Assembly (NCBI GenBank): GCA_030141605.1
Contig: JAQGDQ010000128.1
Location: 372,001-436,000 of the forward strand
Length of the DNA: 64,000 nt
DNA from: Tubiluchus corallicola
Taxonomy: Eukaryota > Priapulida > Priapulimorpha > Priapulimorphida > Tubiluchidae
Direction of reading: 5' to 3'
Shown: positions 5,405 to 61,087 of the stretch, piece by piece
Position numbering within the stretch: position 1 is the stretch's first letter
Layout of the letters: each line of letters starts with the position of its first letter
Position numbers and translations under genes: made by a program
The notes under the pieces: model-generated
Database searches by the model: none
What the model was told of the DNA's origin: nothing
Seen by the model: only the letters and a program-made list of their open reading frames with translations

Positions 5405-16886
<11,482 letters not shown>

Positions 16887-17430: not shown

Positions 17431-17443
17431 AGAGTTGGAAAAT

Positions 17444-17580: not shown

Positions 17581-17674
17581 AATAACGTCTTGCTTATTTT
17601 GCTTGGGCGTCTTGCTTATTTTTGGTTAACTGAAAGCAAGTTGCCTTTTGGTTTTTTTTTAATGATAGTTTCAT

Positions 17675-20817: not shown

Positions 20818-21870
20818 CTTTCTTTGTTTGAAATTTTCTTTGGCCATCTAATACCCAAAAATGTTTCTGTAATTTCGCCTTTGAAACCCATCGATTTCAG
20901 CTTTATGATTTGCTTTTAATGTCCAGAGCTCAGAGTTATACAGAAATACAGTTTCGACTAAGGCTGAGAATATTCTGATTTTTGTTTCCAAAGAAATCTT
21001 CCTATTTTCAAAAATTTTTGCGAGTTTTGAGTAAGCTGATAATGCCATTATCTTTCGTCTTAATATGTCGTCCTCTGTTGCTAGCAGACTACCGAGATAC
21101 TTGCATCTTTGCCTTGATTCATCACCATGGCGTGTTATATGAAACTCTTCAGTTTTATTTTTGTTTATAACGAGATTCATTCTGTTCAGTTTCTTCTCTA
21201 TTGAGTTTTTTATTTCATCTACTTGTTCTTTGTTTCTTGTAATCCATGCCACATCATCAGCATACTGCATTGATATCGTAGTTGACTTACTTTGTAGAGA
21301 GCTGTAACTGTGTTCTTGTCTTACTTCATTCAGTATTAATTTAGGATCAAGAATTGTGTAGTTGTGATCTTCTAGGTCTTTCAATGGTATAACTTTGTCC
21401 TCGGTGAGAGCTATGGCAAGATATAAAGTGAAAAGTACAGGGCTTAGACAGTCACCCTGAGGTACTCCTTTGTTTGTAGAAAATTGCTGACTCAATTTCC
21501 CTTCACACCTGACTTGAAACAAAGATCAAATGAAAACTTCAAACAAAGATCTATATGAAAAAATAAAAGAAGAACCTTGGACAAGAAAAATAAAAAGACG
21601 ACGTTTAAGATGGATTGGGCATATGCTTAGACTACCTGATGACGTTCCAGTGAAGATAGCTCTTCAACAAGCCATAGAACCTGCTAAAAAAACCTGCAGG
21701 AGGACAAATGTTAACATACTTAGATTTTGCACAGAAAGATTTAAACACTTCAGCATTGATCCTTAGAAACAAATCCACTTGGGGCATTGCAGCGTGTAGG
21801 GAGTCCTGGCATAGAGAGGTGAGCAGAATCATGTCCCTGGACGTTTGATTCAGTGAAGAAGAAGAAGAAC
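20818..21870 (+). mobile_element. LINE insertion with 5' inversion
   Basis: Plus-strand 3' part, about 21525-21870: the C-terminal LINE segment (RRLRWIGHMLRLPDDVP) ending in a GAA-repeat tail. Its 5' neighbour, 20818-21524, is the preceding RT portion in inverted orientation, reading on the minus strand: GVPQGDCLSPVLFTLYL, then the catalytic YADD, then RRNYRNIFG. The two segments overlap at the LINE break by about 17 bases (AAAAYTTCAAACAAAGA), and the whole is flanked by AAGTAAT at 20811-20817 and 21871-21877. This is the structure expected from twin priming. It is truncated and inactive. Confidence 0.9.
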
Positions 21871-24361: not shown

Positions 24362-27300
24362 ATGAACAATGAGATTAGCATTACCAGTGAGTCAACTTAC
24401 TTGGAGAACTGCACACCGGTTGTCCTTGATTTAGCCAGCCCTAGTGTTAATTCAGGTAAATTATGTGCATTTTATAATATGAAAGGAATCACCTACTTGC
24501 ATGCATTTAAAAATATGACATCGTACACAAAGTGAACTTTTGATAATATGTAGCACACACTGTCTCTTTATTTATTGATTTATTTATTATTTATAAGGCA
24601 CAAAAATAAATATATACATTTTATACATGAGTAAATGTAAACAGTAACATTATATGGTCATTATCAATAGGAAGGCTGTGCCTACCACTGTGTGCCATGG
24701 ATGACAGCAAGTAATAACTTTTGCACAAGGCCAAAAATGACGTTTTTTCTCTCCGTTTAATCCAGCAACCCAAGTTCGAAAGTAAACCATCAACAGCAAC
24801 GTAATACACTACATTGAGCTATTTATTACTGACAGGCCTATATAATCTAACGTAGACAATGGTATGATATGTAAGTTTTACGAATATGTTATTGTAACTG
24901 TGATCGAGGCCCGCAGTCTCAGCTTAGTATAAATTAATGTATTATATCTATAACTATTAATGTATTGTAGCAGCTTTGCAAGTTGCAAAATAAGGTATTA
25001 AGGTTAGATTCAAAATAAGGTTAAATTATTGCATTAATTTTTTTCTTGTCCTCACAGGTGTTTAACACAACAAGAGCATTTTTTTCAACTTTAACCTTTA
25101 TTTTGTCATCTTCAGCTATGTAAGCTCTCCTTTCATCCTTATTACTGCAGATTTCACGAGCTGCATCCAGAATCTTTTTGTTTTATTTAGTTAAAGACAC
25201 TGTAATGCCATACTTGCCCATATTTATGTTTACTTTACCCTTCAGAGTATTTTAGCTGCATAAAACTAATGTCTCTTTGTTCAAGTGTTGAAAGGAACAA
25301 TGATAGGTACTAGTCTTGCCATCTTAGATGAGTTGTCTAGATTAGAAACTGAAACTGGGATATTTTTCCCATGAACAGTATAAATATAACCAGGGGAAAT
25401 ATTTATACCTATCTTAATTTTTAGCAAAATCCACCATCACATTAATACAATCCTCTTCGTTTCCATTTTTGAGCTCGGGTATACCAAAAACTAGTAGAAC
25501 ATTACATCTCATATATTGAGCCATTGCTTGTTATTAGATTCAGGGAGACCATTTTTAGCCAGTTGTAGAGCATCATTTACAGTTTGGACAGCTTCGGTAG
25601 TATCAGATCGATGTTCCATAGTTTTGTTTTCAGTTGACCAACTTTAGATGGTAAAACAACTAAATCATTTATCTGAAAACTGTAGTTGCTCTCTCAGTGC
25701 TATTGGTCAAAGGTTCAAATTTTTTATCAATCCTAGCAAGTAGGGCTTCATTCATGTTCAGAAACTTTTTGCGTACAGTTGCTGCGTGTTTTAACACCTC
25801 TCATTAGTATTAAAAAAAATTTAATACATACAGCACACATCTGACTTATAATAACTTGAGTTCAGTTATAACCTGTACTGTGAAGCCAAGTACAGTGTTA
25901 CCAACCAACACTACATAGTAAATCTAGGCAGATAAGAACTTTGCTGAAACCTGCCACATCTACACAACTAGGTCACATCGCAAAATGTGACTTAGTCTTT
26001 ATTTGAATTGCCTTAACCAGTTTGGTTACTAACTATGTTGTTAGAAATCACAAAATTGACAAGTTGGAAAAATACTTGTAATTTGTCGCAAACTTCCCAT
26101 AAATTTGCTGTTTGCTAGATAAAGTAATCTAATATTCAACAAGTCATCAAATTTGTTGAAAATTATTCTTAATTTTTTTTGTACAGAACTGACTACAATG
26201 GAGATGGTGCCTTTGCCAACAGCCGAATCTTCTGTGCAGCGTGAAGCTTCCACTTCTGCAGAATCTGCAGTTCGACCTTACTTTAATCGGGTGTGGAATT
26301 GGACATACTCGGGTAGGAAGAAAGTATCTGATTCTTCTGCTGCAACAGACTTACAATTCACTATAATGTCTTATAATGTATTAGCGCAACGTTTACTGGA
26401 AGATCACATGAGCTTGTACTGCAATAGTGATCCATCAGTACTAGACTGGAAATACAGGAAACATGGTTTGTTGCATGAAATCAGCAGTGTTCAGCCAGAT
26501 GTAAGTAAAACCAAGTACGCTTCTAAAAATAATGTCTCATACAAAAAATAAATGGACTAGTTATTTATTTTCAAAATATTAATTTATTGTATGGCTTTAT
26601 ATTAAAATCAAAATATTTATAAATTTTTAATGTTAGTGACTGACTGTTCACATCTCATTTACTTTGTTTTTTTAATGAGAGTAACCCAAATATCAGAAAT
26701 CTTGTTAAGGTGAAAATCTGATATCTTTCAATTGCTTGAAGAACAATATTGCTTATTGTAACTATATAAGATGAGGTTTGGAAAGCTTAATTTATGTCAG
26801 TAACACCACACACGCAGTTCATGTGATTAATTATGTAGAAGGAACGAGTTATTGGTTAAGAAATTCTCAGCAGTTACCTAACTTGATTACAATGTAATAA
26901 ATTTCAAGCAGCAAGTCAATTCCCATTAAGAGCTAACATGAACACTGATTTAAATTAATTATTCGACACATCAATAAATTGTTGAAATGGTAGTACTATA
27001 TTATCGACTCTTAGAAAGGTAAGGTTTCACTAGTAAGTTTACCAATGAAAGAAATATAAACATGGATTGTTTCATCATGTGGTTACCGTTCAAATCAAAT
27101 AAAACGTAGTTCATCGCTTGGTATATATCCCACATGCGCACTAGCAGTCATCGTCAGGAAAAAATGTTCTCATTATCTGACTAGTGCAGCAGAAACACTG
27201 ATAACCACCAGTGTAGCAGAAACACTGTAACGTTTTTAATAAAAAAGGTAAAAAATTTGTTTGTTATTGTGGAATATTTGCAAAATTAAAGGAAGACTGG

Positions 27301-30300
27301 ACGATTGTTTAGACTCAATCTCATTTTAATTTACTGTCCAAAATATACATTTTCTTGCCTATAAAAGTTAACAATTGTTCCTTATATTTGAATAATTAAC
27401 TTTGAAAGTTAATTAACGGCAACCAAACACAGCTATTGTTTACATCAGAAACTAACCACAGTTTGTGCAATGGCAGGTGTCTTCCCTTGCGTATAAAGCA
27501 CATTTGCATAAGTGTTACAGTACTGTTTAAATGCATGATGTCACGAAAAATGGATTTTACATCATATGACGTCTGAAACTAACACTGCAGTTCATGATCA
27601 CGCTTATCATGGTACCGCCTTCTATCTGTCGGCCAAGCAAATGTGACAAAAACGCATCTCTGCCAATCTTAGTAGATTCACTAAGCCATGCGTAGCTTTG
27701 AAAGTTTAACGAAATTTGAGTATCCAAGGTAATTATTATTTAATCTAAGCTTTGATTTAAAAAAAACTATTATAGTTTTCAATATTTTAGAACATTCTTT
27801 ATTCTGAACTAATATTTACACAATCATCCGGTTTTTCTTTAATGTCGTTCATACTTTATTAAGGAAACCTGTCGCAGTTTTCTAAATGCCTGTAGTTCAA
27901 ATGTTTCACGTGCCATAAAGGGGAAACTTAGTAATTTTGTCATTAATATCAACTTAATCTTACATAGATTCTTTGCATGCAAGAGGTACAAGCCGACCAC
28001 TATGATGATTTTTGGAAACGACAAATGGAAAAACTTGGTAGGTACAAAGCTATGCAGGTAAATAGTTATTTGTGATTGTTAACTTTACATTACTTAGTTT
28101 CAATTTTTTTTAATTAATATTAAATTAAAGACTTTAGAATGGATTTTCAAAATACGTAGACCATCTATGGTGGATATTTCCTGAATGGTGGTGTAATGAC
28201 AAAACAGTAATGGCGGGAATAGTGATATAAGACCCATCCAGTGAGGTGCAGTGAGAGGTCAGGGGGACAACGTCTCCAAAAATCTAAAGAATTGTGTTTT
28301 TGGAGGCCTATTTTCGTATCACATATTGGTGGTCATTAGACTATCAAGTTTTCCCATTTTATAACAATGACTTTGCTTATCTATACAGAAGAATATGATC
28401 GCACTTTAATACATGTTCTGAATCTTCCTTGATCATAACTTGTACCTATCATTATTGACTTACATAGTGCAGCCCTTTCAATATTTCTTGCACGATGTGG
28501 CAAGTAATGTGCATTAGCTTTGAAACAGAATCTTATATTCAATTTGATTACCAGTTTTCACTGCAACATCTTAAATTTCTTTTTGTTGTGATTAACAAAC
28601 TTTTATTTAAAAATAATTGTGATAGCTAGGTATTAGGCTGCCTTGAATAATGTCAATGTAATGCACATGTTCGAGATCTTATGTTGGCAGGAAACTTGAA
28701 ATTTGCCGAGTTTTTGTGTATCACACTGAATGTTGTACAGTAGTACTACTGTAATTGAATTTTCGCTTTTACAAGCAACTAAGTGTTTGTGCTGCTAAAA
28801 ATTATGTTCAGTGGTGACATCATCACTAACTGGGTTCTCGGGCTGCTAATTAAGTTTTTAACCTCTTCTTTAATTATCAGAAACACTTTGACGTTATTAT
28901 AGGTGTTAAAGTATATACTTTTTATCATATACCAAATACCAACAACTGGTATTAACATTTCTAGTTGCAGTCAGTCGCTAATTTACATACCCACTGTCTA
29001 CAATAGACATGAAGGGGTTTAGTGTTTCAGAAAACCGTAGTCCATTGATTTTTTTATTTGATTCAACATAACAAACTACGAAGAGGTTAAGTTGTGCATT
29101 TGATTTTGTACACCACAAAAACAATAAGATTCTGTACTTGGTTCAGAATGTGGAAGAAAAACTATAGCATATTCGAGCTCGGTTGGCAAAGGCTCAGTCA
29201 AATATGTGGATTCAGTAAACTATGGTTCAATGAATCCGTACTCTAATTACTTTGTCATGGTAATTAAGTCTGTTTCTGTTAAAAAACTGTAAACTTGTTT
29301 CCTAACCTTGTAGCGCTTATAATTCTGGATTAAGCACATGTGGTATTGGTGCACAAGCCATATGCAGGCAGAGCTAGCTGGAAGGTTGTCACTTTTATTA
29401 ATTTTGAATAATTTTGTTGTACATTTTGCAGGATATTGTGCAACATTCAAAAAGAGGACAAATGATAAATTTGATGGCTGTGCAACATTTTTTAAGTCGG
29501 ACATGTTTGAACTTGTACATCACGAAGCGGTAGAATATTATCACCCCGAAGTTGATGTTTTGAATAGAGACAATATTGCACAGATACTTGTGTTGAAAGT
29601 GAAAGGTGTTAAGACAAAGATGTGCATAGCTAATACACATTTGTTATATAATCCACGGAGAGGAGATGTAAAACTTGCTCAGTTATGTGTGCTGCTAGCC
29701 CGGTTGGATCAGTATGCCTACAGGGATGCTTCCTGTGAAAATCCTTATTACCCAGTGATATTGTGTGGGGATTTGAACATGGAACCGTGGTGTGACTTGT
29801 ACAGGTTTATGTGTGGAGGTCATTTACGATACAAAGGATTGTATATTGCCGACATGTCCGGCCAAAAGAAGACAAGTTATTCTTCTAGACAGTTTTATAA
29901 TAAACTTTTACCAGACAGCCTCGGCATTACCGAAAACTGTCAGTATGAAAGCATTTCTAATAGTCGTTCAAAAGAAATCGCGAGAAAGGTGGTAGAGACA
30001 CTTGTTAGCGATGTTTGTGATGACCAAAACATACACAGTATTGATGTGCCATCTACTCGTGCAAAACATTTTAAAAGTAATGAAAGTAGTTCTGATTCAT
30101 GTTTTCATGTGGAATCATGTGAAGAACTTGAAATGGAAATGTCACATACGCGAAACAACTCATTTAGTGATTCTGTAACGCCAGGTACTCCAGTACCCCA
30201 TATTACTTATCCAGATTCGTTCGACATAAATTCAGCAAGAGCACTGAGTCAACCAGAGTTGCCGTATAAATACGGCCGTTTATCACACAAGTTGAAATTC

Positions 30301-30594
30301 CGATCTGTTTATAAACACAGCTTGCCTAACAAAGACCCGGAAATCACTACATGCCACAATGCAGACTGCTGTACAGTAGATTACATTTTTTATTCAGTTG
30401 ACAGTCAGTGCTGCTTCACTGATAGATATGGTATGTTTCGAACTCGAGATGTACAGGAAGGAAAGCTCCGTCTTCTTGGCAGGTTACAACTTCCTTCGTG
30501 GAGAGAACAAAAGGAGATTGGGTATTTGCCCAGTCAGTATGTGTCGTCAGATCATATGTGCCTTGCAGCAAGATTTTTACTGAAAGATAGCTAG
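24362..30594 (+). CDS. ANGEL2: Angel-type (CCR4 family) phosphoesterase
   Basis: Exons 24362-24455, 26187-26500, 27968-28037 and 29432-30594 join in frame to 546 residues; human ANGEL2 is of nearly the same length. The endonuclease/exonuclease/phosphatase fold starts at IMSYNVLAQRLLEDH (Asn95). The signature continues with ILCMQEVQADHY (Glu142), ANTHLLYNPRRGD (Asn227, His229), LCGDLNMEPW (Asp273, Asn275) and SSDHMCLAARF (Asp533, His534), so all catalytic positions are present. ANGEL2 is known as a 2',3'-cyclic phosphatase acting on RNA ends, and relatives are deadenylases; which applies here is not shown. A serine/acidic insert of about 100 residues (exon 4, 30000-30250) precedes the C-terminal half. 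The start is the first ATG in the exon; an upstream exon is possible. Assignment to ANGEL1 versus ANGEL2 is uncertain. Confidence 0.93.
25040..25800 (-). mobile_element. Decayed LINE ORF1-like fragment
   Basis: On the minus strand, in pieces with stops: CNVLLVFGIPELKNGNEEDC (25440-25520), typical of the RNA-binding ORF1 protein of L1-like elements, then KKILDAAREICSNKDERRAY and VKVEKNALVVLNTCEDKKK toward 25040. It lies in Angel intron 1. Confidence 0.6.
28625..28935 (+). repeat. Dispersed repeat A, copy 1
   Basis: Shares blocks such as TGTACAGTAG...TGACATCATCACTAACTGGG and TTATTATAGGTGTTAAA with 36620-37200 (opposite strand) and 53218-54875. It carries the uninterrupted AATT site (28872-28875) that is split by an insertion in the third copy. 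In Angel intron 3. Confidence 0.7.
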
Positions 30595-43227: not shown

Positions 43228-43306
43228 ATGTCATTGATTAGTATGCGAGATGATTTGAACTGCACAGAAAATCAACGTCCACCACCTGTAGAAGTTGTGT
43301 TTAAAG
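43228..43306 (+). CDS. SLC51A: OST-alpha exon 1
   Basis: Starts MSLISMRDDLNCTENQRPPP; an in-frame TGA at 43165 precedes the ATG. Ends AAA G before GTAGGG, phase 1, so the G pairs with AG of either exon 2 to make Glu (VVFKEM). Extracellular N-terminus. Confidence 0.85.
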
Positions 43307-46300
43307 GTAGGGTCTTTCACATTTGAATATACATGTGCATTTACAATTGTTTGGTTACACTTTTTACTTGTTTTGTGTAGCAAAAATTTATTAGTATTAA
43401 CTATTTCTTCGTATTGCTTTTTTGTATTGCATTACAAAAGTTTTTATATTATCACGCTGATAGGCCTACGGTTATATCAGAACTTAGTTGTTTTTTTGAA
43501 AGCCTAGTTGACATAGCAAGTAGCATTTGATGACAGATGTTATTAGTTTCTATAAGAAGAAAAGATTTTGTGGATTTTTTGAAGACACGTTGGTATGGAT
43601 TTGCAAACGCAAGAACTACACTTTTTTTGCTTTTAAATTTACATTCTTAGTGCTTGAGTTTTTTTTACTAGAAATCAAGAAAATTAAACATACATCTACT
43701 TTTGCCATTTTCTCGTGTTATTATTGTGTAGAACTGCAAGTAACAACCTTTAAAAGTAATAATCTATAGTTTAAAGGTTACTTTCAATCGAATGAAGCTG
43801 TCAGACCTCGAAGAACATGTCATGTTTTACCTGCTGTACACTACACTCATATGTTAATATGTAGTTGTGTGTTTAAATTGAAAGCTGTGTCTTTTGGCCA
43901 CTACTTCAAAATAATTTTTTTCTCATTTTTGAATTCAAGAAGGAAGCTGAAATTCTTAGACAGGCACTTTAGCAGATGCTCTAAAAGCAGCTGCTAATGG
44001 TCAACTCTAATTGTTAATCTATGCTAGAGCTTTCCTCTTTATTATAAAATCGTTGTGGTTTTCAGTGGCTTTATTTCCTTGCCTTTATCCGAATTTTTAA
44101 AGAACTTCTAATTTTGGATGTTTTAAACATTTGTAAATGTTCAGTTAAAAAATATACAATGTGTTTTCATCTGTTCATAAATTAAAGCCTGTGTGTGGTT
44201 AGTTTTGGTACATTTGTTTATTTATTAAAAACAAAAGTGCTACTGTTTAATTTGTTGAATTTAAACAGTTAATACTAAGTTATTTGCTATGTTATAACAC
44301 AGTAAGCAGCTGAGGTGTTTATAACAGTTTTTTGGGTTTTCTTGCCACATAGCCACCGCGACTGTTGTCATTTGATTGCACATATGTTTTCAGAGATGAC
44401 ACGGCCTGGGTTTATATTGTCCAGTGTCATTCTGCTTCTCGCCTCTGTTACATTCCTCATTTACATTGACGAGGTCCTGTTTGTTCGGAAAACTCGGATC
44501 TCTTCGTCCCGGAAAAGCCGTTATTACTTTCTTTTGGGCCTCTATCCCGTAAGTGTGTGAGTGTTGCATGATTTGCATGGCATGTTTGCACGTTTGCTCT
44601 GTTACAGAGATGAGTCGAGCGGGCTTTGTCTTGTCCACTGTGGTGTTTCTGCTTGCTTCTACCACACTTTTGATTTATCTTGACGAAGTGCACTTCATCC
44701 GCAAGCTTACACACTATCCATCTGTGAGAAGAACTCGCTATTTCTTTTTGCTGGGCCTGTATCCGGTAAGTTTTTGTCAGTTATTATGCACACGTCACTG
44801 AGTAGCTTCTCTTACAGGTACCGCAAGGTAGGGCAAACATATACTTTAGATCTAAATATAACATTTCTAAAGAATGCTTTAGCTTTAAGTCCCAAAAGCT
44901 TTATTGATATTCAACAAATAAAATATTTTTTTATTAACTGTTGTGGTTTCTTCAAAAGTGTGCATTAATCTTATTAATCTTATACTTAAAACTGAAGTAA
45001 GTATGTCTGTAGGCAGTTTGGCTGAGAAAGTAGCACTTGCCCTTGTAAGAACCAGGTATTATACTAGGTAGTATTTAATGAGTTCAGAAATTGCATTGAA
45101 AACTGATAGGATTAAAGCGAGTTGGTCAATAAAATTTAGTAAAAATGGCAACAGCATAGGACTCTTGTCGATAGTGTACTGGTTTTCACAAACTCAGGTG
45201 ACTTTAACTGCTAAATATAAGCATCTAAACGCCAGTTAACACAGCAGTGCAAAAGTATTTAAACTGAAGCAGTTCTCTAACTAATTTCTATAGCACGAGA
45301 TGTGGATATGTAAGATAGCAGAAGAATTACTGCTTTGTCAATCTTGTTTAAATTTAAACTTGATTTTAACTAGTTTAACCATATTCAAATCAAATTTCTG
45401 ACCATGTAACATAAAGCAGAGTTTTTACGGCATGCATAATTTGCGCACTACAAATGTGGCACAAAGTGACATCACATTACAGGTTTAGTTGCCCACCTGT
45501 AGTTAAAAGTAAACCCAGAGTGCTGATACAGATCAGTGCTCACAAAAAGTAATTTGCTTTATGCTAATTTTAAACAATAAAAATAATGTGCATAATTCGC
45601 TTTACAAAAATGGTACAATAAACTTTCAGAAAATGGGCAAGTACTACTTGTAGATTATTTATTGGTTAAAAGTCAGTCTTTATATGTTTCTAGCCAAGTT
45701 GTGTCACTGTCTACGAATTACTTACTGGCAGTTACTGCCTATTTAGCAGTATAGAGAAAATGATTTTTTCACACTTGTATGTATATGTTTACTTCTTTAC
45801 TATTACTGTACACCTATCTGCTTTTTATTCAGTAGATACTTAATTTGCATCATTTGAATTAGTTTAGTTAACTGCCACTGAGTTTTTTGCTTATAGTATA
45901 CAATTTCAGTTTATTTTTAGGAGAGCTTCATTCGATGCATAATGTGGACATAAAACGTTACATGTTTAATTGTAACAGTCCGTCATTAGTTGCTTTTATA
46001 TTATAAAAGATAACTTTTGTGTTTACTATCACTATAAATTCTTCGAATTTCTACTGTACATAGTTCTATTATTCATTATTCTTTAAAGGTAAAGAGTTCA
46101 CTAAGCAGTGCAGTCTGGAATGTAATTGTTTCTTATCACTTTAAAAAAAATACAAATTTTGATATGATCCATCATTAACTGTATTATGGTGCTTGTTTTG
46201 CATGAACTCTTAAATTAGATTGGCTGTTTAAGCCAAACAAGAATTGGAAATTTGAGTTTGTTTTCGTAGCTCATGATTTTATAAGTGCATTATAATAATG

Positions 46301-49300
46301 ATTATGCATTTACAGCTTGCTAATTGGCATAAAGTACAGAAAATTGGCTTTTACTACTAAGTAGCACATTATTCTCTGTTATCCATAGTTCCTATTTTTA
46401 GCACTTTTTTCTGAAAGTAATTTTAACATGATTGGTCTTTGAACTGATGTAATATTGTTTATAAAAAATGTGTTTACAATATTTGTTAAATTACTTTTCA
46501 ACAGGTGTTTTCTTGGACATCGGTTTTGGGTTTATTTATTCCACGTGCTTCTGTGTTATCTCAATTAGTTTCGATATGGTAAGATGTGTTACATTTATAG
46601 CTATGTGACATGTTTAATGTAAAATTTCCCTTCACTATACATTAGGCCTTATCGGTAATCTATTATTATGCCATATCAGTAATAGTAAGCTTGCCCAGAT
46701 ATAAAAATTGTTTTGTTATGCACGTGACATGGGTTAGTATAATAACACTGGAAAACATGCTTATTTTTTCAAGGTAACAGCAGTAGTGTTTTCAGGTTCA
46801 AAAATTAAATTTTGTTAACAGTTCACAGTTTCACTCATTCTCAGTATGTTAAATAGTTTTGCTAAAATTTTCCATTGCAGCATCAACTTTCATCACTATG
46901 TGTTTACAGTTAATGCTGATTATGAAACCATGTCAGTTAGATTTTAGCTCTTCTTTTCTACCTTTATTTATTTTTCAGTTATCTTGCTTTGTGCGTATAT
47001 CAGTTTTTTGAGTTGATAGTGGATTACTTTGGTGGCAAAGCCAAGATGTTTCAGACAATCTCAGATTCAGCTATCATTCCACTCAGAAGTGTACCCGTAG
47101 GTTGTGTACTATGTTGTGTGGATTCAGCTAAACTTACTAGGTTTGTACACTGAATTCTTTTGAAACTATTTCCTAATAAAACTTCTAAGAGATTAATATC
47201 ATTAATTGAGTTACTCATGATCTTAAGTTTTTATGGGTTCATTTGGATGGCTAGTTATTAATAGTTAAGTGATCACTCATTTAGAACTGTAGTAGTAAAT
47301 TTTTGTATTTATCATTATAATTATTAAATATAGGGATTTTACAATTTAGCTCAATTACTAAAGCTTAAAGACTGTGTCATCTAAGTGTTACTTAAAGTGT
47401 CATTTAATGGCCAATGTTTTTGTACTAGCATAAGCCATCTGCTTTAAAAAGGCTTTTAATAATTATTGAATTTAAAGTAGCATACTTAGTGGCATATCAC
47501 TAGCTTAAGTTGGTGAACCCTAGTTTTCCATAGGCACATTTTCCGTAGGCATAAAGCCTCTCGTGTTATTTATGGCCAATGTTTATATACTAGCATATGC
47601 CATCTACTTTAGAAAGGTTTCTTATAATTATTGCATTTAAAGTAGCGTACTTAGTGGCATATCACTAGCTTAATTTGATGAACCCTAGCTTTCCATAGAC
47701 ATACATTTTCACATATCAGTCTTCTCAAGTTGTGTCGTATAGACTACATACATAGGTCTACTATCTTATGATATTTCTTGGAAATGTTAGACAATTAATA
47801 ATGTTTCAGTACTGCAGTTACAAGTCCAGTCCACCCAGGCAGTAGCTATTAATCTTGTTTTACACCACATGTTTCTGAACTTAATTAGTCATAAAACTGT
47901 TTTAACTAGTGCAATAAATAGCTGTGAAATTTGAGCATCCTGGACTACTTAGATTTACTATGGGTGCAACCAGTAGTGCAGACTGCTGCTGTTTATTGAT
48001 CATACAGGGATTAATTTGTAAATGTTGCTATGGCAGTGTCAAGGTCAAAAGTTCACTAAGCGTAATACATGAATGCAGGATGTTTGACACAAATTGACAA
48101 GTGGTTAGTCCACTAGTTTGCAAATGTGTCGTATCATTTTACTGTGGGCTGCATTATTTGTTGTAGTTGAAATTAGAATGATTACAAAATGTTCTTTTAA
48201 AATTCGCAAATTCAACAGTTTCAGAAAATGAAGTATTTGCAAGTTTTGCATCTCCACTAATTTAGCAGTGTCTCTCTTCTTAACTGGGCTACTTTCCCTT
48301 CTCAATGGCTGTTGATGTTTAGTAATAAGTTCTTTGTCTGAACCTTGTGAGCTGAGAATTAAACAGGTGGCAGTTCCCAGTTTGTGTCAATAATGCCTGT
48401 GCACTATATGCTGTGCAGCATAAATCGAAGATCTTAGCCAGACATGATGCTAAAATTATTGTTCATTAATTACTATTAAATGCTAAAAGTACGTGTACAA
48501 GTTTAAGTTTAAGCATTTATTTCAAAAATACATTTGACAGCTTGATAGACTGTTCAGCTCGTTACTAATGTCTAAGATTCTAAGTATTAACATTAAGCAA
48601 TAAACATTTATATAAATTGGTATTTTTATGCAAATATCTTAATTTCAAGGTTATCAATTAATATTTAAGTAAATCAATTATTATTAGATTTATTAAACTA
48701 AATCTATTTGAAAAAATTGAAATGTGGAAAGTCTGACTCCCGACTTTTTCCAATTTCTTTCTTTCAGTCTATTTAATTTGAAAATCTGGCAATTCTATTC
48801 GGTCATGCACAGTACACCCCAGAATGTACATGTATTTTTATACTGTACAGCAGTAGACTGTACAGTGTGCCTGTTTATTGTTTTGTCCTAGAAAACCAGC
48901 ATATGTAAACATAATGTATACTCATTTATTGACCCAGCCACTGCCATCTAAGCAAACTGACAAATAAGGTAACAGTTGACTCATCAGTCTGCAATTCAAA
49001 AATTACCCATTGAACACTAGATAACCTTTATAGCTAGCAAATGTTCAAAGCAGCCAGAAAGTAGATTGTCGGCACAGAAAAACAACTAAACAAATTTATG
49101 ATTCTTTGTAAATATGCTTCGATTTCCCTAAATGCACATTGATTTTGCTACTTTTATCCATGAGCTTGTATAGACTACTATAATTATCGTTTTTACAAAA
49201 AATTCCAAACTTTAGTCCTTATATTAACAACGACAACTATATTAGTGATATTTAAGGCACTTAGTTATAGTGTTAACTAAGTTATTTTACTATATATATT

Positions 49301-52300
49301 AGTTAATGTAGTTATTTTACAATGATATTTTTTATTATAGGAAAAATTTTCTTCGTTTGAAGCGATTAGTTTTACAAATGGCAATACTGCATCCCTTACT
49401 AATGTTTGTCGGTGCTGTGTTATCAGCTAATGGCACATATAATCCAGGAAAAGTAAGCTTCTATAGTCGTATCATTAAAATTGTGCTATTTGTGACATAG
49501 TTATAGGTTGGGGGCCCAACCGTTAAATGATTTTAGAAGATTCTTTTTGCTACTTTAATTAAATTTTGTCTTTTAACAAAGTAAATAGTAGTTAGATAAA
49601 ATCAACAACTTGTGGTCATGGTTACAGTATTCAACAAAATTCTCTAATCCACTAATTTGAAACCAGAAAGTTTAAATTTTAAAAATAAAATGAAGAACGT
49701 ATGTTACATAGTGACAAAATTTATATTTTTGTTTAAAAAAGGCTACTATCATCAACATTAGCTTAAATTATTAATGTGTAAACTAACATAAAACATTAGT
49801 TCATTCTTTGTTGATGTAACAAATTTGTCTATTAAACCAGACTGAATAAACAATTTCCATAAAGTAAAACCATCTGGTCAGCATGGTTTTTGTTTGTGAC
49901 AATGGTTTAACAGTCTGATTTGAGTGGCCAAATTTGTTACATGAACATCAAATGAACTAGTAATTTTATTTATAGTTTTATGTTGATACATGCGATTTTC
50001 TTTATATTCAAACTTTGATTTTCAGATATCACTTCATAGTTCTTATTTGTATATAACAAGTATTGCTGGTATATCAACAGCATTAGCCGTCTGGGGTTTA
50101 GTTATGCTATACAGGTAATAAACCACTTTGTCACATTCACACTTTTTGTGATGGCTATCTTTTTTGTGCTTTTTTGCCATTTTATTGATTTTTAGTGCAC
50201 TTTATGATTGTACACCCTGTTACATTTACCTGTTTTTGGTATTACTGATATGTAAAGACAATACTGTTGTTTCAAGTTAGAGGCTTAGTTGTGCTAAATA
50301 TATAACTTGGCTATGATCCAGATGTGTTGTTGTAGTACAGCAAGAAAATGTTTAAAAAGATACTGTCTGTAGCACAAACGTACTTTTTTTCAATTTATGA
50401 ACGTTATTGCTTTTTTACAAGATTGTTAAAGGAATGGTTTCAGTTTTTTACTTTACTTCCAATTGCATATTTATACCTTGCAAAATCGCATTTAGAATGC
50501 AAGTTTAACATGCTAATGTAAACGTTATAATTTTTATTGACAGTTACATTACATGTAATTTGAAACTCTCTTTGTAACTAAACTTGCATTTGAGTTTTTT
50601 CTGTTTATGAGAAATGGATGAGTTGCTCATAACATTTATTTTGTACATCATACGCATATGTCTGTCTGCTGCTTCAACCATAAATGTTGTGTGCAGACTG
50701 TGCATGCATTGAGAATCTCCAGACTAGGGTGGTTTTATGCTTTCTAACACACTGAGTAGTCACAGCAGTCAGAATTAGCAACTGCACTTAAATAGTCCTT
50801 GGTCAGAAAATGGATGGGTGACCACCTGGAAAACAGTCTTTTTAGTGTTTTGGTGGTTACATTTATCGTACTGCTCCAGCTGTTTGCCCCGTTAAGAGAT
50901 GATGCGTATGAACCCAAGTGTGACAAAGCACGTTTGTGGGTTTAATGTTGCATACAGATGAGACAAACTGGCAATTACTAGTCCTGCCACAACCGTCAAA
51001 GACTTAGAAGGTCTTGCTATTCATTGCTGGGTTCCAGCTTACTGAGTGTGAAAATATTAGAAAAATTTATCTAAGTGAAGCTGCAAGAATTTTGAAGATA
51101 TTCTTGCTAATAGCTGCGTTCTCAACTTGGCTTAACTGTGGCTATGCATAAAAGAAGAATTGCTAACAAAAAATGATTGCGAGGTTTAGCAGACATTTGT
51201 GCCATGCACCCTCTTGATCACTATTATGTTGACTTCCTCTTCACATGACGTATCAGAGGATGGTTTGCTAGAAGCTTAGCTTGGATTTTACTTAAAAAAA
51301 TAACAGCAGCAACTTCAGTTTTTTTTTGTATTGCAATGCTAGTGCTGTTATAGCTTATGATTTATATTGTATTACTTTCGTTATATAGGATAGCAAAAGT
51401 TCCTTTAGCTTCGTATCATATCACAGCCAAGTTTTTTAGTACGCAAGTAGTGCTCATTATGTCAAATGTACAGGTATGTGTGTAATATTTTTAGACAAAC
51501 TAATGCTTGTGAAAGTAAAATTGATAAGCTCATTAGCCACCAGAAAAATGTTTTTTTTCAAAGATTTATAATCACGTTCTGTTACCTACTGTGTTCCTTG
51601 CTGAGTTAGCATAGATTTATATTTATATGCCCATCCCAACATAGGCAACACTAGCAGCTGCCCATCCCAACTCAGGCAACATTAGCTGTTTACAGAACTT
51701 TGCTTTACTCTGTTAACTGTTGATATCAAACACTTACAGTCAAGCCAAATGATTGGAGCACATACACTTCACTGCAAAACATTGCAAAATATTTAAATAC
51801 CAGTGAGCTGAGTAACTCTGTCTTAACCACTTCACTGCCTGCATGATGAGAATCTCCCATCTTGAAAATACTATTTCGACTGGCCTGTATGACAAGACTA
51901 CTGTCATGCTTAATATGCAAATTAACTGATGCCTACACCAAAAGTAATAATACTTGCACATGCCATGTCCATTTGAGGAATTAAACTGTCGAAAACAAAA
52001 GGCAGTGGTATCATTTATTGTCTAAAAAAGTAATATACAAGCTACAAAAACTTATGGCCAAAAAAGTGCAAAACCGCAAAAACGATTGCTGTTATTGCGG
52101 AATGCTATCGCCTGCTAGCATTGTAATTGCTACCTTTTGTGTAGTTTTTTATCCTTTTCATGGATTTTTGTCTATTCAAATGGCTTAGTAAAGGTACTGT
52201 GTAGGAGAAATTAGAAACTATCTTACCAGATTTGGCATCGAGTCATCAGATGATGGTAGGTAAAGCCAATCCATACATATAATTGAAAACAGGTGGTTAA

Positions 52301-55300
52301 ACATTGTTTAGTTGACTAACTGTGTACATTCAAGCTAAAAATTGTAGCTACAGACCTTTATTTCTTCTACACTAGATTAGCTATTGGGTCAAATGTGAGC
52401 TGCTATGTTTACATATTTTTCAAAAAAGTAGTAGTTTGTGATGGCGATGGCAGCAACGGCAATAGTGACAGTCGTAGTGGTAGTGAATGGAATATGATGG
52501 AGTAACAACTGTATTAGTAATAACAGTAATAGCAGTGATAGGAGCAACTTTTCATTTTCTTAAAATATTCCGGTGCATCAGCTGGAATACATATTGCACG
52601 GCAGTGAAGTGGTTAGTCTGTGCACCTCGTTGTATCAGCTTGGTATAGTAATTGCTATCCATCGAAGTGGGAAAATTAATACTAGTATTGTTTTTAGTGA
52701 GTTGCAAAGAACTGAATTATTTGCTAGGCCGGTAGTAAACAACAAGTTTAAATTTTCTCAGTTCAGAAAAATATTCATTTATAAACTAATACTGTTTGCT
52801 ATGCAGTAAACAAAATTTGTAGCGAAAAATTTATTGTGTTTTTTCCATTTGACTTTTTTATTGCGTGTTTGCTTTCGTGTGCATTGCTATATTTAGTCAA
52901 TGGTACAGTTACAGTTACTATGAATAATTTATATGTACACATACAGTACTTTATTTTTGTATGAATGTGATCAAATGAAGAAGCTAAAAACATAAATAGC
53001 ATATCTCGAACTTGCTCGCTATCAGATATCCAGACCAGCAATTAGGCTGTTCTTTTAGTTAAACAACTTAAATGTTGTGTAAATTACTAGGAATTTTCTT
53101 TTCTACTAACCCGGGGCCTTCAAAAAAACTAAGAGTGCTGTCAGCCAACAAAATTTTATTTATGTTGATTATTTAAATCAAAACGAGACCCAACCTTAAA
53201 CCATAGCTCAAAACAATCTACCCTATAAAATATTAAAAAGGAACATACTATTTTTTTAAGAATGACATAAAAGAATTATTTCAAAAACGTAACTTCATGT
53301 TCGCATGGCTAGTTTTTCCTTGTTACATGCATTTAGATGCATTAGCTGGTTAGATGGGCACTAGCACCTGCATCTCGGAGACATGTTGCACAAAACAGCA
53401 CGTGCAGTACCTGTCAGTTCAGAGGTGTTCGGTTGTGACATGGTGTACACGTGTTAGAGCTCATGCGTGAGCATAATGGTAAATTTAAAATTTGCTGAAG
53501 TTTTGTATGTCACAGTAATGCTGTGCTTCAATATTCGCTTTCCAAATATGTGCAACATGCTCGTGGAATGTTGTTTTGTTGAAAATTAATATGTCCAGTT
53601 ATGCTGTCATCACTAGTTGGGCTCACCTGCCATTAATTAAGTTTTTAGCCTATATTTAATTGAAGTCTAACATAATGTCAATAATTTTCGTTGACTGCCC
53701 AATCAGCGTGCAAGTTATTTCACACACCTGCAGAGCTTACTTAACTCAGGTACGTTCGGGACGTTTAGACACAGCTGCTTTTAATACTGTTATGAAAAAT
53801 GTGGGTAAAATATTGGCCTGGTTCTAGATTTTATTATTGTAAATTGAAATTGCAAGTGAAATAGTGGAAATATATAGTCTAGTTATATTCATAGGAAGAA
53901 ATGCACAATGCTTATGTCTATGAGTTTCTGATTAAATCATTTTGCAATCAAGAAAATACGCAGTTTAGTTCAGTTTATGGCTTTGCAAGTTAGATAAAAA
54001 CAACAATTTGATTAACTTTAAATAAGGACAAAACAAAGTGTTTTCTTTTCTGGCCAGTTTTTATAAACCTCAATGAGTTCTTCACAGTCAAAATTAATTC
54101 AAATGTGGTCGAAGCCTATATTATACGTAAATGTAATATTAGTTAATTTTACGCTATTTTTCTGTTTATAATCATGGTTAAAAGATGCCATTGGGACTTA
54201 TGTAACTCGGGTTTCAATATAAGGGTCATCGATGGAATGGACCAATCAAATTTATTCTAAGTTACGTAGCCTAACAGAAAAATACAAAAACTGAATAAAG
54301 CTTGCAGACAAGCACATGATCAGTTAATATAAAAAAAATACGTTGCAGACTTGATGTTCGCATGTTTAAAGGCAAGAGAGACAATAATTTTGTTGCTCAT
54401 TTATTGTAAAGCAAGGCTGACTGGCTTAGTTTCTTTATTATACTTATGTCTCTGTATTTTGTAGTGCATTGAAACTTCGTCCTCTACATTTTGTTTAAAT
54501 TGAAAAGTCATTTTTTGGCTACTTGAAGTGTCAATTTTGTGTAAAAATGGCTGCTGCTCTGCAAATTTGTGTTTATGAAAAAGTGCAATCAATTTATCTG
54601 CTGATTAGATGTTAATTTTGACTGTCATGTTGTTTAGTTTAGTTAGTTTAGTTTAATTTAGACAGTTGTTGTTCAGCGTGAGCTGTTGTCCCGAATGCCG
54701 CTCAGCGTGCTTACGTTACAGCAAAGGCAGAGCGATAAACCAATGTGTTTGGCGTCAATTATCAGGAACGCTTTGGTATTATTATAGATGTAAAAATGTA
54801 TACTTCTTACCGACTTCAAAATGGGGTAGGTTATGAAAAATCATCCTGTTTTCCTTTAAAGCATTCAGAATTTCTTAATCTTTCCCTTTAGAGTGCATGG
54901 TAACTATTGTTACATGTTGACTGGATAGCTATATTTCATAAAATATAATAGTGTATGTTTAACACTTTTGTTTTAGGGTTGCTTATTTATACTTCTTGCG
55001 GGCAATAATGTAATTAAATGCTCGGCACCACTAGTGACATCTACGAGGGGAATTGGTGAGCATTATTTCTATTTTCATGCCTGACTTCCATTTTTGGACA
55101 GCTTTCCACCTCGTTAGCCGCAGTTGTTTTCCTATTTGTATGCTTTTTGTTGTTATTTAGGAAAAGTTTTGTTTCTTATAGTTTTTTCTTTCTGCCAGTA
55201 CATGAAATGTAAGTGCTTATTGCTAAATATGCGATTATGAGTTCGACTATATTAAGTATTCAGCGCAGAATTGTTCTAATTTGGTAACTACCTTGAGCAA

Positions 55301-58300
55301 GACCACCTACTCATTTTAATGCTTTCTGTAGCAGCTCTCTCATTTTTAAGTGAACTTTTGCTGAAGAGAATGGTTCATGCAATGAGACCTTATTTGTTTG
55401 GTCTATTAAATTCTAGAATTGCCTGCCATAGCTAACTTTTACTATTAAATCATATAAACACACACTTGTAACACAAACAATCTCGCGAAAAAATTTTGGT
55501 GTTAAATCAATTTCTTTGCAGCAGTAAGTCCAATAAGTACTGCATTTCTTACTGGCTTTGGGTTGCGTGATCTATTGTGAAATCAAGAACAATTGCAAAA
55601 TAACTTGTGCACTTGATTTTTGGTGCTTATTATATTTATACTTCATACTTTTTCCGACAATACTCAGCTTTTTTATTAAACAAAGGCTTTTTCATGAAAA
55701 ATTAATTTGTTGCTACAAATTGTAACTAATCTGGTATTTATATAATGCCACAGTTAAACATTTTTTTACAATTTTTGTTGCACAAATGCATGTTTTTCTG
55801 TTATTGATGTTGTTTATTATTTATTACTTTCTGGCATGTTCTAGCACTGTTTGACTGTTTTCAAGCTCAGATGTATTACACATTCTCCAATGCAAATGTA
55901 TAACATTGCCATGTGATGTGTATTACATGACGTTGAATATTTTCTGCTGTGCCATTCATCTGGTGCTTTGCGTGTGTTAGCAGTTTTATTGGGTTTGTAA
56001 GGGTTATGGTTTTGTGTTACACAACAGAATAATTTGCCATTGCACAGAGGTCACTGTGCATTTTACTGTAAAATTTAAGATATATAATGAAAAACTGCTG
56101 TTGATGATTTTAAGCTAAGTATTTTGAATGTTTACAATCAGGGTAGTTGTTGAATGTAGTGGTTTAATGTAGATCTTTGTTGGTAAAAATCTCTTTGATT
56201 GTAAAGTAGAAAACATTGTTGCTATGAAACATTCTAGTCTTCAGGTTTACTACAATAATGAATTGTATGGCTTGATTAAATCTTGCGTTCAAACAGCATT
56301 ATCTAAATTACAATTACTGTAGAGTGGCTCTCCGTCTCTAAATCAGTTTGCCATGTTTGCATTTATGTGCAAACTACCAAAACGCTACAGGAAGTGCTGT
56401 ATAAGCGTCCTGATTAATTGCATCTCCAAACAGTTCTTTAGAAAGGGTGAAATAGTTCATTTCTTCATTTTACTTTGGCTATCTAATTGGCAATTAGGCT
56501 AAGAATTTTAAGATGATGTCTAGCTTCCAGGTCTCTTTATTTGTATTCGTGTTTCTTTTTCATTCAGTCAGTACAGTCTGAAAATTTATTTTTGCTTTTA
56601 AGTCACTGTGTCAGTGTTGTACTTTTTGGTTTCTCATTTAATTACTAGTGAAGATTAAAAGGCCATAGCAAGTAAATACAGTATCTTGCTATTACAAAAC
56701 CAAGACCGAGAGTCAAAACTCCTCATATTTTATCTATTTTGTTACATTTTTTAATATATATATATATATAAATATATATAAATCATCCCCCACAAGGCCG
56801 GTCCATTCGAGGTAAGAGCTACAGTGAAAAGTGAATATTAGTCGAGAGAAACGGACTTCGTACATCTAATTTGTTAGTAACAGAAGGTATTTGTTGAAGT
56901 CCTTTTTGAATTGAATTGATATGGTTGAGGTTACAGCTAACAGATGACTGGTATAGAATTCCACAGGGAAGAAGTCCGAGGAAAAAACTGTACTTGTAAG
57001 CAGTTACATAAATAAAGAAACTACAGGTTGCAAAATAACAGCAATACGTACACTGGTTCTACTTCAAAATGAAAACCCCAATATTTGAAATCCAGACTGA
57101 ACTTTAAATTTTATACTATACAGATCAAAATCCATTCACTTACTCTGCTTTTGAGTTACTGTAGGGAGCAAGTGTAAAAATAATCGTCTCCCAAATTTTA
57201 ATAGATTTTAAGTAGATTGTGTACTGCGTACACACCCAAATTTTGTACAGCTACTGTCAAAATAAATCATTTCCTGTTTTTTAAATGTTGCGCGAAGTAT
57301 ATTTTACTCTAATACCACAGTTCTTAAAAAAACTTATAGGTGAGCCACTCTAATTTGTGCACCTATTTTTTTTGTTTTTGATTTAGTGTTATTCTAAGCA
57401 GAATGATAATTGTATTTTTCAGTCAGTGTTTTGATATGTCTCTGTGTAAGTCAACCATTAATGCTTATAAGCTCCCATGCTATTGATTTTCAAACTACGT
57501 GTAAAATACAGAGATTTACGTTTCTATGGGTTGCTGAGTTTACAATTTCTCTTGTAGAGCTGCATTTCCTGCTGCTGATATTTGAGTTATTTGCCGTCTC
57601 TGTCGCAGCTCGAATCTACTATCGACGCATCAGCCTTCCTGGGATGAATAGGATAACACAAAAATTGACAGATGGAGAAATGGTGTGCACAACGAATGAA
57701 CCTATACCAACCATTAGTCGGTTATGATCTGTTCGACTGAAAGCATTTTCAATATTTGTCAGCAAATATCTGATAACAGTATTACTTTGGCTATTCTGCT
57801 ACTATAAAGCAGTGAGAGGACTAGTGTTCATCTGTTCATACCCTGTGCTGATGACTGAATATAAAAATTTGAGAACACAGCTTAGGGTAAAAATTAACTG
57901 AAAGCATATAAAGGTGTGTGCATATCCAGATGTTATTGATACTTAAAATTGGAACAATATTGTGGACACTTGGATTTCTTAGATTACTGCATCATTGTAC
58001 TACTGAACTCTTATTTTATTATGCCAAATAACTTTTGGAACTTGATGGCCTGGTTTAGTGTGGATTTCACTGGTATATGCTCCTGCCTTTGCTGCCTTTA
58101 AACATATTTATTGTGATACCATAGAATACTGTGATACAGTGTCGTGGCTTCAACGTGTTTTGTAATATTGTAGGACTGAAGTCGTGGAGTACTTAATTTG
58201 TTACTTAAGTCGGTGCCGCTTAATAGACTCACTTTGGGATCAACGTGTTTTGACCTAATTAACTGACTAAACCTATTAACCGATGGGTTATTAGAGGTAT

Positions 58301-61087
58301 TTACAGGCATAGAACTATGAGTCATTAGCTTACTATGCACTGCAAAGGTTTTCATTGAATTTTAGAAACGAAGTAAAGCCTAAATTCCTTTGTGCAGTTA
58401 AAAATTAGAAAAAATATTTTAAAATATTAATATTAATATTAATAATTCCTTTTTCATACGAAATAAACTCATAATAATAATTTATATAAATGAATTAGCA
58501 ATAAATTAAAAAAGTATACTAAATCACAGACTTTTTTAAGTCTGTATATTTGCAAAAATTACAAAAATTCCTTCAAAGTCGGTTGCTTCATTTTCTCACG
58601 AAGAAGTTGACCCACAGTGTTCTCGTAATTATAAAAATGTTGAAAATCTGTTGTTTGTGTGTGTGTGACTAAAACAGTTCTGAATCGTCTGCTCACTTAC
58701 TGCGCCCTTGTAAGTCACAAGGAAATCCGGCTGACTACTGTACCTGCATCTTTGACTATTAACTCATTAAGCCTGAAAGCGTGATTTACAACTAGAGCAT
58801 CAAAAGGAAACCGCTAGACAAAGAAAAGTGATTAAATGTTTAGCTTCCAGAAATTCTTTGGGTAACAGTGGGCGAGCCGGTAACAGATTCAAAGCAAAAC
58901 CGCTTCGCTAGCTTATTAGTGCATGATAAATGTACCTGCTTATAAACAAAACAGTACTTAACATGATTGTTTCTGCATGCATAGTGTACAAAAGGGAAGT
59001 AAAGATGCCATAAAAGTAGGAAAGGCTCTTTTGGCACATACAAATATCTTATTTTAAGTAGCTGAAGAAAAAGTATTGAGTTAATTATGCAGAGTTATTT
59101 GAGTCAATTACCGATAGTTTTTATGAGTATTTGAATAGATGCAGCCAGTTGGGTGTTTTGAGTCAATTAAGCAATTGAGTTTATTAACCGTGAGTCTATT
59201 AAGCGGCACCTACTGTGTATGGCAACTAACAATGCAAACTATTTAATGGTGATTAATTTGTGGAAGTGCAGTATACAATATATCAGAATGAGTGCTATGA
59301 TACAGAATCAAAATGCTTTTATTCATGCTAGTCATCATTTAGAACTTGACTTAAGGCTATAGACAGCATTGCAGGAAGTTGTCTAGTCAAGAATTGTCTA
59401 CTTATGTATTTTACATTATTACAGTTTTATAAATTTAGTGTCTCTACTTGATCATAAATAATCCCATCTAGTCGTCAACATGCATTTTTTGAGAAATCTT
59501 ATTTTTAAGTTTAGGTCAATTGTAATGTAATTTTATTTTTCATATTTGATCCAATCGTAATTGAAATTTATACCTCGCACTTCTAGGCTGAAGTTTGTGT
59601 TGGATAATTGTTAGTTAATATAATTATGGTATTGGTTGGTGGCATGTATTGATAATTATTAGTGAAGTAATTTGGGTGTTTTATGAAAAAGGATGAAACT
59701 GTGACAATATTTTGGATTTTGAAACTTGAGTCAACTGTTGGATTGTTTGCTGTACTAGCAAAATGTGTTCTGTGAGTCACAAAATTGTTAAATTAAGACG
59801 TGGGATTCTTATGCACTTCAATTTTTTGCTTGTACTTTTTCATTTATTACATACCATGATAATAGTAGCACAACATTTTTGCATTTACTGGAGTGGAGTC
59901 CTCAGCATTGCGGTCGCACATATTTGTGCATTACCTTTTTACTGATGAGCATTGGTTCATAATAATAGTTCATTCTCCAGCATTTTTGTAGTTGTACACA
60001 ATTTCGATATTACATTCAACAGGGTATTTATACAGATGATTATTTTATCTATGCACCTGTTATTCCTGTTAGAATGTATTTTGAAAATTAATTTGGTGAA
60101 GCATCTGCATACTCAATGATGGGAAACAGTTTATAAAATAAATAAATATTGTGAACTTAGAATTATTTTATTTATTATATATTCTGCGATTAATTAGTTG
60201 TTCTTGTTAGTTATCACAGTACAAGATTACTCAACAACTTTACAACTTGGGATTACATGTGAAGAGCTTTTTGTTTGTTAATTTCAGCTTGCGCTGGTAT
60301 ACAAAGAATATTTTTGCTTGTAACAGTTTTGTGCTGTTACTGTGTAGTGTGTACATTTATTTTACAGTTCTTCAGCTGATATGTGCATGTGCAACAACAA
60401 TTGTGACTTTGTTTTTTTTTTGATAATGTTTGTAAAGCTTGGTGAATAATTTTCATTGGTGCTTTTTTACTACATGTAAGTATGGCAGTATTTTTAAACA
60501 CCTCTGTATGTCTCCTGTCGAGTGTATCCATCCGAAACCTTGTGGTTGTATAGATTCTTAATGTATGGTTTATATTCTTATAAAAGTTTTCACTGTTCAT
60601 CAACTATGCTCCAATGAATGTCATTTGTTTCAGTTTTCATTTTAGAAAATAATAACAAAGAAAATTACATAAGTAAACAGTTTTACTGCTGATGGTAAAC
60701 AATTTTTGTAATGCTTTAATTTGAAGCTACCAAGAGCTATATTTATTAATTCAGACTTTCAGTAAAGATTGTCATATTTGCATATATTAATTTTCTGAGT
60801 CATATTACTGATGATTTGTTTTTCATTGGTGTGGATGTTGTTAATTTTGAGGATTTCTTGTTAGTTACACAGTTATATTTTTAAATTTCACTTCTTCCGT
60901 TTCAGAGCTGCATCATCTTCTGCTAGTATTTGAGATGTTTGTTGTGTCTGTGATTGCTCGTGGTTACTACAGGAAAATTGTTGACTTGCCACATTGCATA
61001 CTCCGGCAACAGAGTGATAATGAGGATCAGTCTGGAGAAGATGAACTCAGTGACCATGACGAGTGTGATCAGCTGGCGCATTTCTGA
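43228..61087 (+). CDS. SLC51A: Organic solute transporter subunit alpha (OST-alpha) with alternative exons
   Basis: Exons: 1 43228-43306; 2a 44394-44548 or 2b 44608-44765; 3 46505-46578; 4 46979-47140; 5 49341-49452; 6 50026-50114; 7 51389-51473; 8 54977-55055; 9a 57558-57727 or 9b 60906-61087. The four combinations give 334 to 339 residues; human OST-alpha has 340. Seven membrane helices are predicted, after an extracellular N-terminus with an N-glycosylation site (NCT). Family features seen: GLFIPRASVL, DYFGGKAKMFQTISD, the cysteine-rich VGCVLCCVD loop, LTRKNFLRLK, NGTYNPGK and the last helix ending ARxYYRR/K. OST-alpha pairs with OST-beta to move bile acids and steroids by facilitated diffusion across the plasma membrane; substrate here is inferred from family only. 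Confidence 0.93.
44394..44548 (+). CDS. SLC51A: OST-alpha exon 2a
   Basis: Acceptor TGTTTTCAG then AGATGACACGG. Encodes the first membrane helix (FILSSVILLLASVTFLIYI), DEVLFVRK and FLLGLYP. 155 bases, ends phase 0 before GTAAGT. Confidence 0.9.
44608..44765 (+). CDS. SLC51A: OST-alpha exon 2b, duplicate of 2a
   Basis: Acceptor CTGTTACAG then AGATGAGTCG. Encodes MSRAGFVLSTVVFLLASTTL, LIYLDEVHFIRK and FLLGLYP, clearly paralogous to 2a but different in the loop after the helix (LTHYPSVRRT versus TRISSSRKS). 158 bases, same phases, donor GTAAGT. It lies only 59 bases after 2a. Confidence 0.9.
44766..46504. other. SLC51A: OST-alpha intron 2
   Basis: No further exon 2 copy or repeat boundary recognised. 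Confidence 0.5.
46505..51473 (+). CDS. SLC51A: OST-alpha constant exons 3-7
   Basis: Exons 46505-46578, 46979-47140, 49341-49452, 50026-50114 and 51389-51473. Splice sites are all GT...AG and codons split correctly (Cys across 3/4, Arg across 4/5 and 6/7). They encode helices two to six and the Cys-rich cytoplasmic loop; sequence follows human OST-alpha in order without gaps. Confidence 0.9.
47408..47706. repeat. Tandem duplication, about 160-base period
   Basis: GGCCAATGTTT...ACTAGCATA...GCCATCT...TTAGTGGCATATCACTAGCTTAA occurs at 47408-47545 and 47572-47706 with scattered differences, in OST-alpha intron 4. Confidence 0.85.
50811..50833 (+). repeat. 5S-rRNA-like segment, possible SINE3 relic
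   Basis: TGGATGGGTGACCACCTGGA matches the conserved internal promoter region of eukaryotic 5S rRNA. The rest of a 5S gene is absent. Probably part of a 5S-derived repeat. Confidence 0.45.
53218..54875 (+). repeat. Dispersed repeat A, copy 3, split by nested insertion
   Basis: Homologous to 36620-37200 (reverse complement) and 28625-28935, but interrupted at an AATT by the element at 53662-54756. Lies in OST-alpha intron 7. Confidence 0.75.
53662..54756. mobile_element. DNA element with AATT duplication (copy 2), itself interrupted
   Basis: Reverse complement of 14068-14700 in extended blocks (TTCGTTGACTGCCCAATCAG, GATTAACTTTAAATAAGGAC). Ends GAAGTCTAACAT and TTTGGCGTC are flanked by AATT (53658-53661, 54757-54760). 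About 440 unmatched bases (roughly 54180-54620) lie inside. Confidence 0.8.
54977..55055 (+). CDS. SLC51A: OST-alpha exon 8
   Basis: Reads GCLFILLAGNNVIKCSAPLV then TSTRGI and ends with G, phase 1, before GTGAGC. The same G+AG gives Glu with either terminal exon. Confidence 0.9.
55056..57557. other. OST-alpha intron 8
   Basis: Contains a short TA run near 56755-56780 followed by a possible dispersed repeat fragment (56785-57130). No exon other than the optional 5' extension of 9a was seen. Confidence 0.4.
57558..57727 (+). CDS. SLC51A: OST-alpha terminal exon 9a
   Basis: Acceptor TTTCTCTTGTAG; ELHFLLLIFELFAVSVAARI, YYRRISLPG and a 36-residue tail ending TISRL. An in-frame acceptor at 57420-57422 would add 45 residues, but human OST-alpha has nothing there. 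A candidate AATAAA lies at 58462. Confidence 0.88.
57728..60905. other. 3' UTR of isoform 9a and intron to 9b
   Basis: No coding exon recognised. A candidate poly(A) signal AATAAA is at 58462-58467. Confidence 0.45.
60906..61087 (+). CDS. SLC51A: OST-alpha terminal exon 9b, duplicate of 9a
   Basis: Acceptor TTCCGTTTCAG; ELHHLLLVFEMFVVSVIARG, YYRKIVDLP, then an acidic tail (SDNEDQSGEDELSDHDECDQ) ending HF and TGA. The helix is paralogous to 9a; the cytoplasmic tail is unrelated to it. Confidence 0.9.

Follow-up and report, generated by a model that had tools for sequence, protein, structure and literature searches.

A frame-constrained, probably mutually exclusive pair of duplicated exons in an OST-alpha gene of the priapulid Tubiluchus corallicola

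Results and Discussion

Gene content of the window and structure of the OST-alpha gene

The window, that is, the whole stretch of 64,000 nucleotides that was analysed, contains an OST-alpha (SLC51A-like) gene spanning positions 43228-61087 on the + strand. The gene has eleven coding exons, nine of which are present in any single protein, and its features are as follows.

43228-43306, +: exon 1, start codon and N-terminal segment, ending in phase 1; the N-terminus aligns with that of the Priapulus protein P0001
44394-44548, +: exon 2a, 155 nt, phase 1 in and phase 0 out; TM1, first loop and start of TM2 (helix limits from the P0001 model)
44549-44607, +: intron between 2a and 2b, 59 nt, carrying GCATG three times (twice as TGCATG) and GCACG once
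44565-44584, +: RBFOX-type GCATG cluster, motifs at 44566, 44575 and 44580; of the three degenerate branch-point candidates in the 59-nt intron, two overlap the cluster
44608-44765, +: exon 2b, 158 nt, phase 1 in and phase 0 out; alternative version of exon 2
46505-46578, +: exon 3 of the gene model
46979-47140, +: exon 4 of the gene model
49341-49452, +: exon 5 of the gene model
50026-50114, +: exon 6 of the gene model
51389-51473, +: exon 7 of the gene model
54977-55055, +: exon 8 of the gene model, ending in phase 1
57558-57727, +: exon 9a, putative alternative last coding exon with TM7, C-terminal tail and its own stop codon
60906-61087, +: exon 9b, paralogous putative alternative last coding exon with the acceptor phase of 9a, a different, acidic tail and its own stop codon

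Both spliced proteins that were tried matched the Pfam family PF03619 (Solute_trans_a) over nearly the entire model, scoring 158.7 and 167.9 bits where the cut-off is 24.9, and a PDB sequence search with the spliced protein returned human OST-alpha chains (best E = 6e-38), in agreement with the assignment of the gene to OST-alpha in a preliminary description of this DNA. The closest relative found was the OST-alpha-like isoform X2 of Priapulus caudatus (P0001), which is 69-70% identical across the protein and has 158 of 199 residues in common with the window over exons 3-8. A profile search added OST-alpha proteins of six further animals, 32-34% identical to the Priapulus protein; two of these have 77/199 and 78/199 residues as in the window over exons 3-8. 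No convincing further copies of exons 3-8 were found in the window by tblastn. Intron 4 contains a direct repeat of 133 nt (47404-47701) in two copies that are 89% alike.

Elsewhere in the window, several similar long open exons with leucine-rich-repeat-like modules lie in series at 5372-17993 and possibly belong to one gene with duplicated module exons; LRR_8 matched 7839-8552 above the cut-off (E 7.6e-07) and 9879-10622 below it (E 1.7e-04), with no match at 10869-11612. A long GAT/ATG-type trinucleotide repeat with several open frames occupies 8568-8981. A reverse transcriptase fragment on the - strand at 20848-21525 (RVT_1, E 9.6e-15) is probably a retroelement remnant. An ANGEL-type (CCR4-like) nuclease gene of at least three exons lies at 26228-30588. 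Neither Rfam nor tRNA scanning gave any match in the window.

Paralogy and splice sites of exons 2a and 2b

The coordinates, lengths and shared phase given for exons 2a and 2b in the preliminary description proved exact base for base. Their paralogy, which had also been proposed there, was borne out by a tblastn search within the window, in which the 2b-containing protein found 2a at E = 9.6e-17, a value by which chance similarity was rejected. The two exons encode the same residue in 33 of 51 aligned codons (65% protein identity) and match at 94 of 153 nucleotides; because of this low nucleotide identity, an assembly artefact was also rejected. The splice sites of both exons are GT-AG, both donors read gtaagt, and the AG that opens each exon 2 completes the split codon G|AG (Glu) begun in exon 1. 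The pair is thus homologous, similar in length and alike in splice-site pattern and reading frame; these are among the criteria applied to mutually exclusive exons, similar length being by default within 20 amino acids in the scheme described in PMC3228551.

Reading frame of the possible transcripts

Eight exon combinations were translated, pairing each possible choice at exon 2 (2a, 2b, both or neither) with each last exon, 9a and 9b. An uninterrupted frame encoding 334-339 residues results in the four cases where exon 2 is used once, while the other four, with both exons or neither, suffer a frameshift and early stops. As had been predicted, joining exons 1, 2a and 2b gives '...LYP R *', an immediate stop, and joining exon 1 to exon 3 shifts the frame and then runs into a stop; retention of the 59-nt intron between 2a and 2b also leads to a stop, at '...LYPVSV*', with a protein of 81 residues. 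The stronger claim that one and only one of the exons can be used stands for the protein, in that only single use leaves the frame open, but not for the splicing reaction, which the frame does not police. Frame-enforced exclusive pairs of this kind are ordinary, accounting for 377 (60%) of 629 human clusters in the account of PMC5740500, where 83 of the 377 nevertheless have reads that join the two exons.

The 59-nt intron and the choice between the exons

The intron between 2a and 2b is 59 nt long, and the next smallest intron of the gene has 400 nt. Introns of about 59 nt are spliced in nematodes and flies. The suggestion made earlier that this intron may be too short to splice is plausible, because of this difference from the next smallest intron and because its length places it below the donor-to-branch-point limit of about 50 nt discussed for vertebrates (PMC5740500, PMC7969005), a limit that was applied to 57 (9%) of the 629 human clusters as described in PMC5740500. 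Degenerate branch-point candidates are located at +20, +29 and +42 from the donor. The intron has no YTNAY site, which is not special to 2b, as three of ten acceptors have none between -45 and -18.

The 59-nt intron is the sole stretch of its length in the window, on either strand, with three GCATG motifs, for which the Poisson probability at the window's own rate is about 3e-5, an optimistic figure because the motif was chosen after the intron had been read. GCATG is absent from the 59 nt adjoining each of the gene's other splice sites, nine acceptors and eight donors. A looser pattern, TGCATG-N(0-30)-GCATG, has three matches window-wide against 1.87 expected, which is not unusual (reached by 29 of 100 shuffles). 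The 59-nt intron carries (U)GCAUG motifs adjoining alternative exons, as expected of RBFOX-regulated pairs. The FGFR2 gene has mutually exclusive exons 8 and 9, and Fox2 represses the second of these, exon 9, by way of UGCAUG in the intervening intron 8 (as described in PMC2880598). In egl-15, by contrast, the UGCAUG through which RBFOX proteins repress exon 5B is found in the intron preceding that exon; 5B is the upstream member of its pair, so the motif is located ahead of the pair and does not separate the two exons. In unc-32, exon 7a is favoured by a motif in intron 7b (both as described in PMC3585155). These two layouts, as far as that account presents them, imply that the position of an RBFOX motif does not dictate the outcome everywhere. 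RBFOX binding could also mask the 2b branch site, because two of the three degenerate 2b candidates sit inside TGCATG motifs. That RBFOX is the switch between 2a and 2b is a tentative proposal, to which we give somewhat less than even odds.

A competing explanation, which we consider possible but on the unlikely side, is that the exons are mutually exclusive but that the selection between them depends on steric hindrance within the 59-nt intron, together with competing intronic RNA pairing, and not on RBFOX. It draws on the intron lengths given above, by which any branch point lies at most 59 nt from the donor, and on predicted pairing of the 59-nt intron with intron 1 (-38.6 kcal/mol, a strength attained by 0/60 shuffles) and intron 2 (-40.0 kcal/mol, attained by 2/60). 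These values are for the best of many windows, and the shuffles preserved only base composition, leaving dinucleotides unconstrained. Overall, pairing with flanking introns exceeded most of these simple shuffles, being reached by 0/60, 2/60 and 2/40. The pairing is without comparative support, and steric hindrance and pairing alone do not explain a regulated choice.

Selection on both copies and age of the duplication

Over the 51 codons, 2a and 2b differ at 34 third, 15 first and 10 second positions (chi-square p = 0.0003). NG86 analysis gave a dN of 0.26, with dS saturated and not computable. In neutral simulations with divergence at the third-position level, the number of residues kept was at most 17 of 51, so that none of 20,000 sequences reached 33, and 4% of the sequences were without stops. 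Furthermore, four positions of the segment do not vary among seven OST-alpha proteins (R65, G74, Y76 and P77 in P0001 numbering), and both copies have these residues. From the third-position bias of their differences and their open frames, both exons look to be under purifying selection, and together with the simulations, the invariant residues and the AG and gtaagt sites of both this argues that the two copies have been selected as coding exons.

These results bear on the possibility that just one copy is still spliced in, the other being a relic. The sole related protein sequence seen has one version of the segment, and P0001 resembles the two copies about equally (34/52 and 34/53), which would suit such a relic; against this stand the third-position-biased divergence, the saturated synonymous sites, the two open frames, and the retention in both copies of family-invariant residues and AG/gtaagt splice sites. 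A recent loss of use is compatible with these data, but a relic seems very unlikely. Still harder to credit is that separate promoters drive 2a and 2b as alternative first coding exons, each with its own ATG start: each does open AG ATG, with ATG from the third base, but both retain the AG acceptor and the two bases that finish the split codon of exon 1, the Priapulus protein has the exon 1 segment joined to the exon-2 segment, and 59 nt would leave scant room for a 2b promoter.

A tree of exon-2 peptides was built from eight of the nine aligned sequences, P0006, whose N-terminus aligns poorly, being left out. AU p values were 0.08 for 2a and 2b as sisters and 0.74 and 0.35 for the other two topologies, none of which was rejected, so that by the AU test the exon-2 peptides are compatible with a duplication either before or after the split from Priapulus. 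At the 18 sites that differ between 2a and 2b, P0001 is as 2a at five, as 2b at five and as neither at eight. The Priapulus protein carries the name isoform X2 and belongs to a 90% cluster of two member sequences; both facts are compatible with a similar exon pair in Priapulus but are not proof of one.

Protein segment encoded by exon 2

The fold was read from a predicted model of the Priapulus relative P0001 (mean pLDDT 69.7, pTM 0.72). This predicted structure aligned with human OST-alpha chains at TM scores of 0.77-0.78, and its three PDB matches at E <= 0.001 were all human OST-alpha; the OST-alpha fold was accordingly recognized on the model of a relative that is 70% identical to the window's protein. 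The exon-2 segment corresponds to P0001 residues 25-77. It had been described as the first membrane helix and its cytoplasmic loop, and TM1 (28-56) and the first loop are indeed exchanged, but the description was too narrow, as the exchange also takes in 15 residues of the 26-residue helix 63-88 in the P0001 model. Differences between 2a and 2b fall in helix and loop alike, and the net charge of the loop is +6 for 2a and +5 for 2b. Judged from the translations, the 2a and 2b forms would each be a full-length OST-alpha, differing from TM1 through the first loop to the beginning of TM2.

A second duplicated exon, 9a/9b

The last coding exon is also duplicated, and exons 9a and 9b encode homologous versions of TM7. 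Their phase-1 acceptor, AG|AGCTGCAT, is identical, and 18 of 25 TM7 residues are common to both, while the tails are unrelated; exon 9 covers most of helix 275-300 of the P0001 model plus the tail. P0001 has 19/25 TM7 residues as in 9a and 17/25 as in 9b. Over 23-25 codons, 13-15 third, 7-8 first and 5-6 second positions differ between the two exons. AATAAA occurs downstream of 9a at 58462, 58500 and 60137 and downstream of 9b at 62724, 63226 and 63414, which is weak evidence in AT-rich DNA. Exons 9a and 9b would be alternative last exons, and the gene could encode 2 x 2 proteins, variable in TM1-TM2 and in TM7 and the tail. It is also conceivable, if improbable, that the transporter consists of two modules, RBFOX picking TM1 (2a/2b) and alternative 3'-end processing picking TM7 and the tail (9a/9b), with both choices coupled.

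Interpretation and comparison with known exon pairs

We conclude that 2a and 2b are most probably a tandem-duplicated pair of two functional exons that are used mutually exclusively, a reading to which we assign a probability of about 0.85. Under the mechanism we propose, both exons would be used. An RBFOX protein bound to the GCAUG cluster in the 59-nt intron would repress the 2b acceptor or branch point so that 2a is favoured, and 2b would be used where RBFOX is lacking. Joining of 2a to 2b may be hindered by the short 59-nt intron, and any mRNA with both or neither exon 2 would be removed as nonsense.

The pair resembles FGFR2 exons 8/9, egl-15 5A/5B, SLC25A3 and OGDH 4a/4b in that adjoining homologous exons have similar length, the same phase and the same splice-site type. 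As in FGFR2 (described in PMC2880598), the paired exons are separated by an intron with an RBFOX motif, and as in OGDH that intron is short, although its 59 nt compare with 118-131 nt in the bird and mammal OGDH genes described in PMC7969005. Unlike in those pairs, the host is an OST-alpha gene and exclusive use is here predicted from genome sequence; the gene also differs from known SLC51A/PF03619 members in that one gene encodes two TM1-TM2 versions and two TM7-tail versions. Frame-enforced mutually exclusive exons are a known principle, and OST-alpha would be a new host for them: like the preliminary description, which knew of no such report for OST-alpha, we found none in the open-access literature among the papers listed.

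If correct, this would to our knowledge be the first case of mutually exclusive exons in an OST-alpha gene. With the GCATG cluster filling the 59-nt intron, a single small minigene could serve to test how the either-or choice is enforced. A transporter that has either of two TM1-TM2 segments and is otherwise unchanged would constitute a natural swap experiment, for which human cryo-EM structures are available for mapping. Were the 2a/2b and 9a/9b choices in fact coupled, they would provide tissue-matched helix pairs that may alter substrate handling or partner binding.
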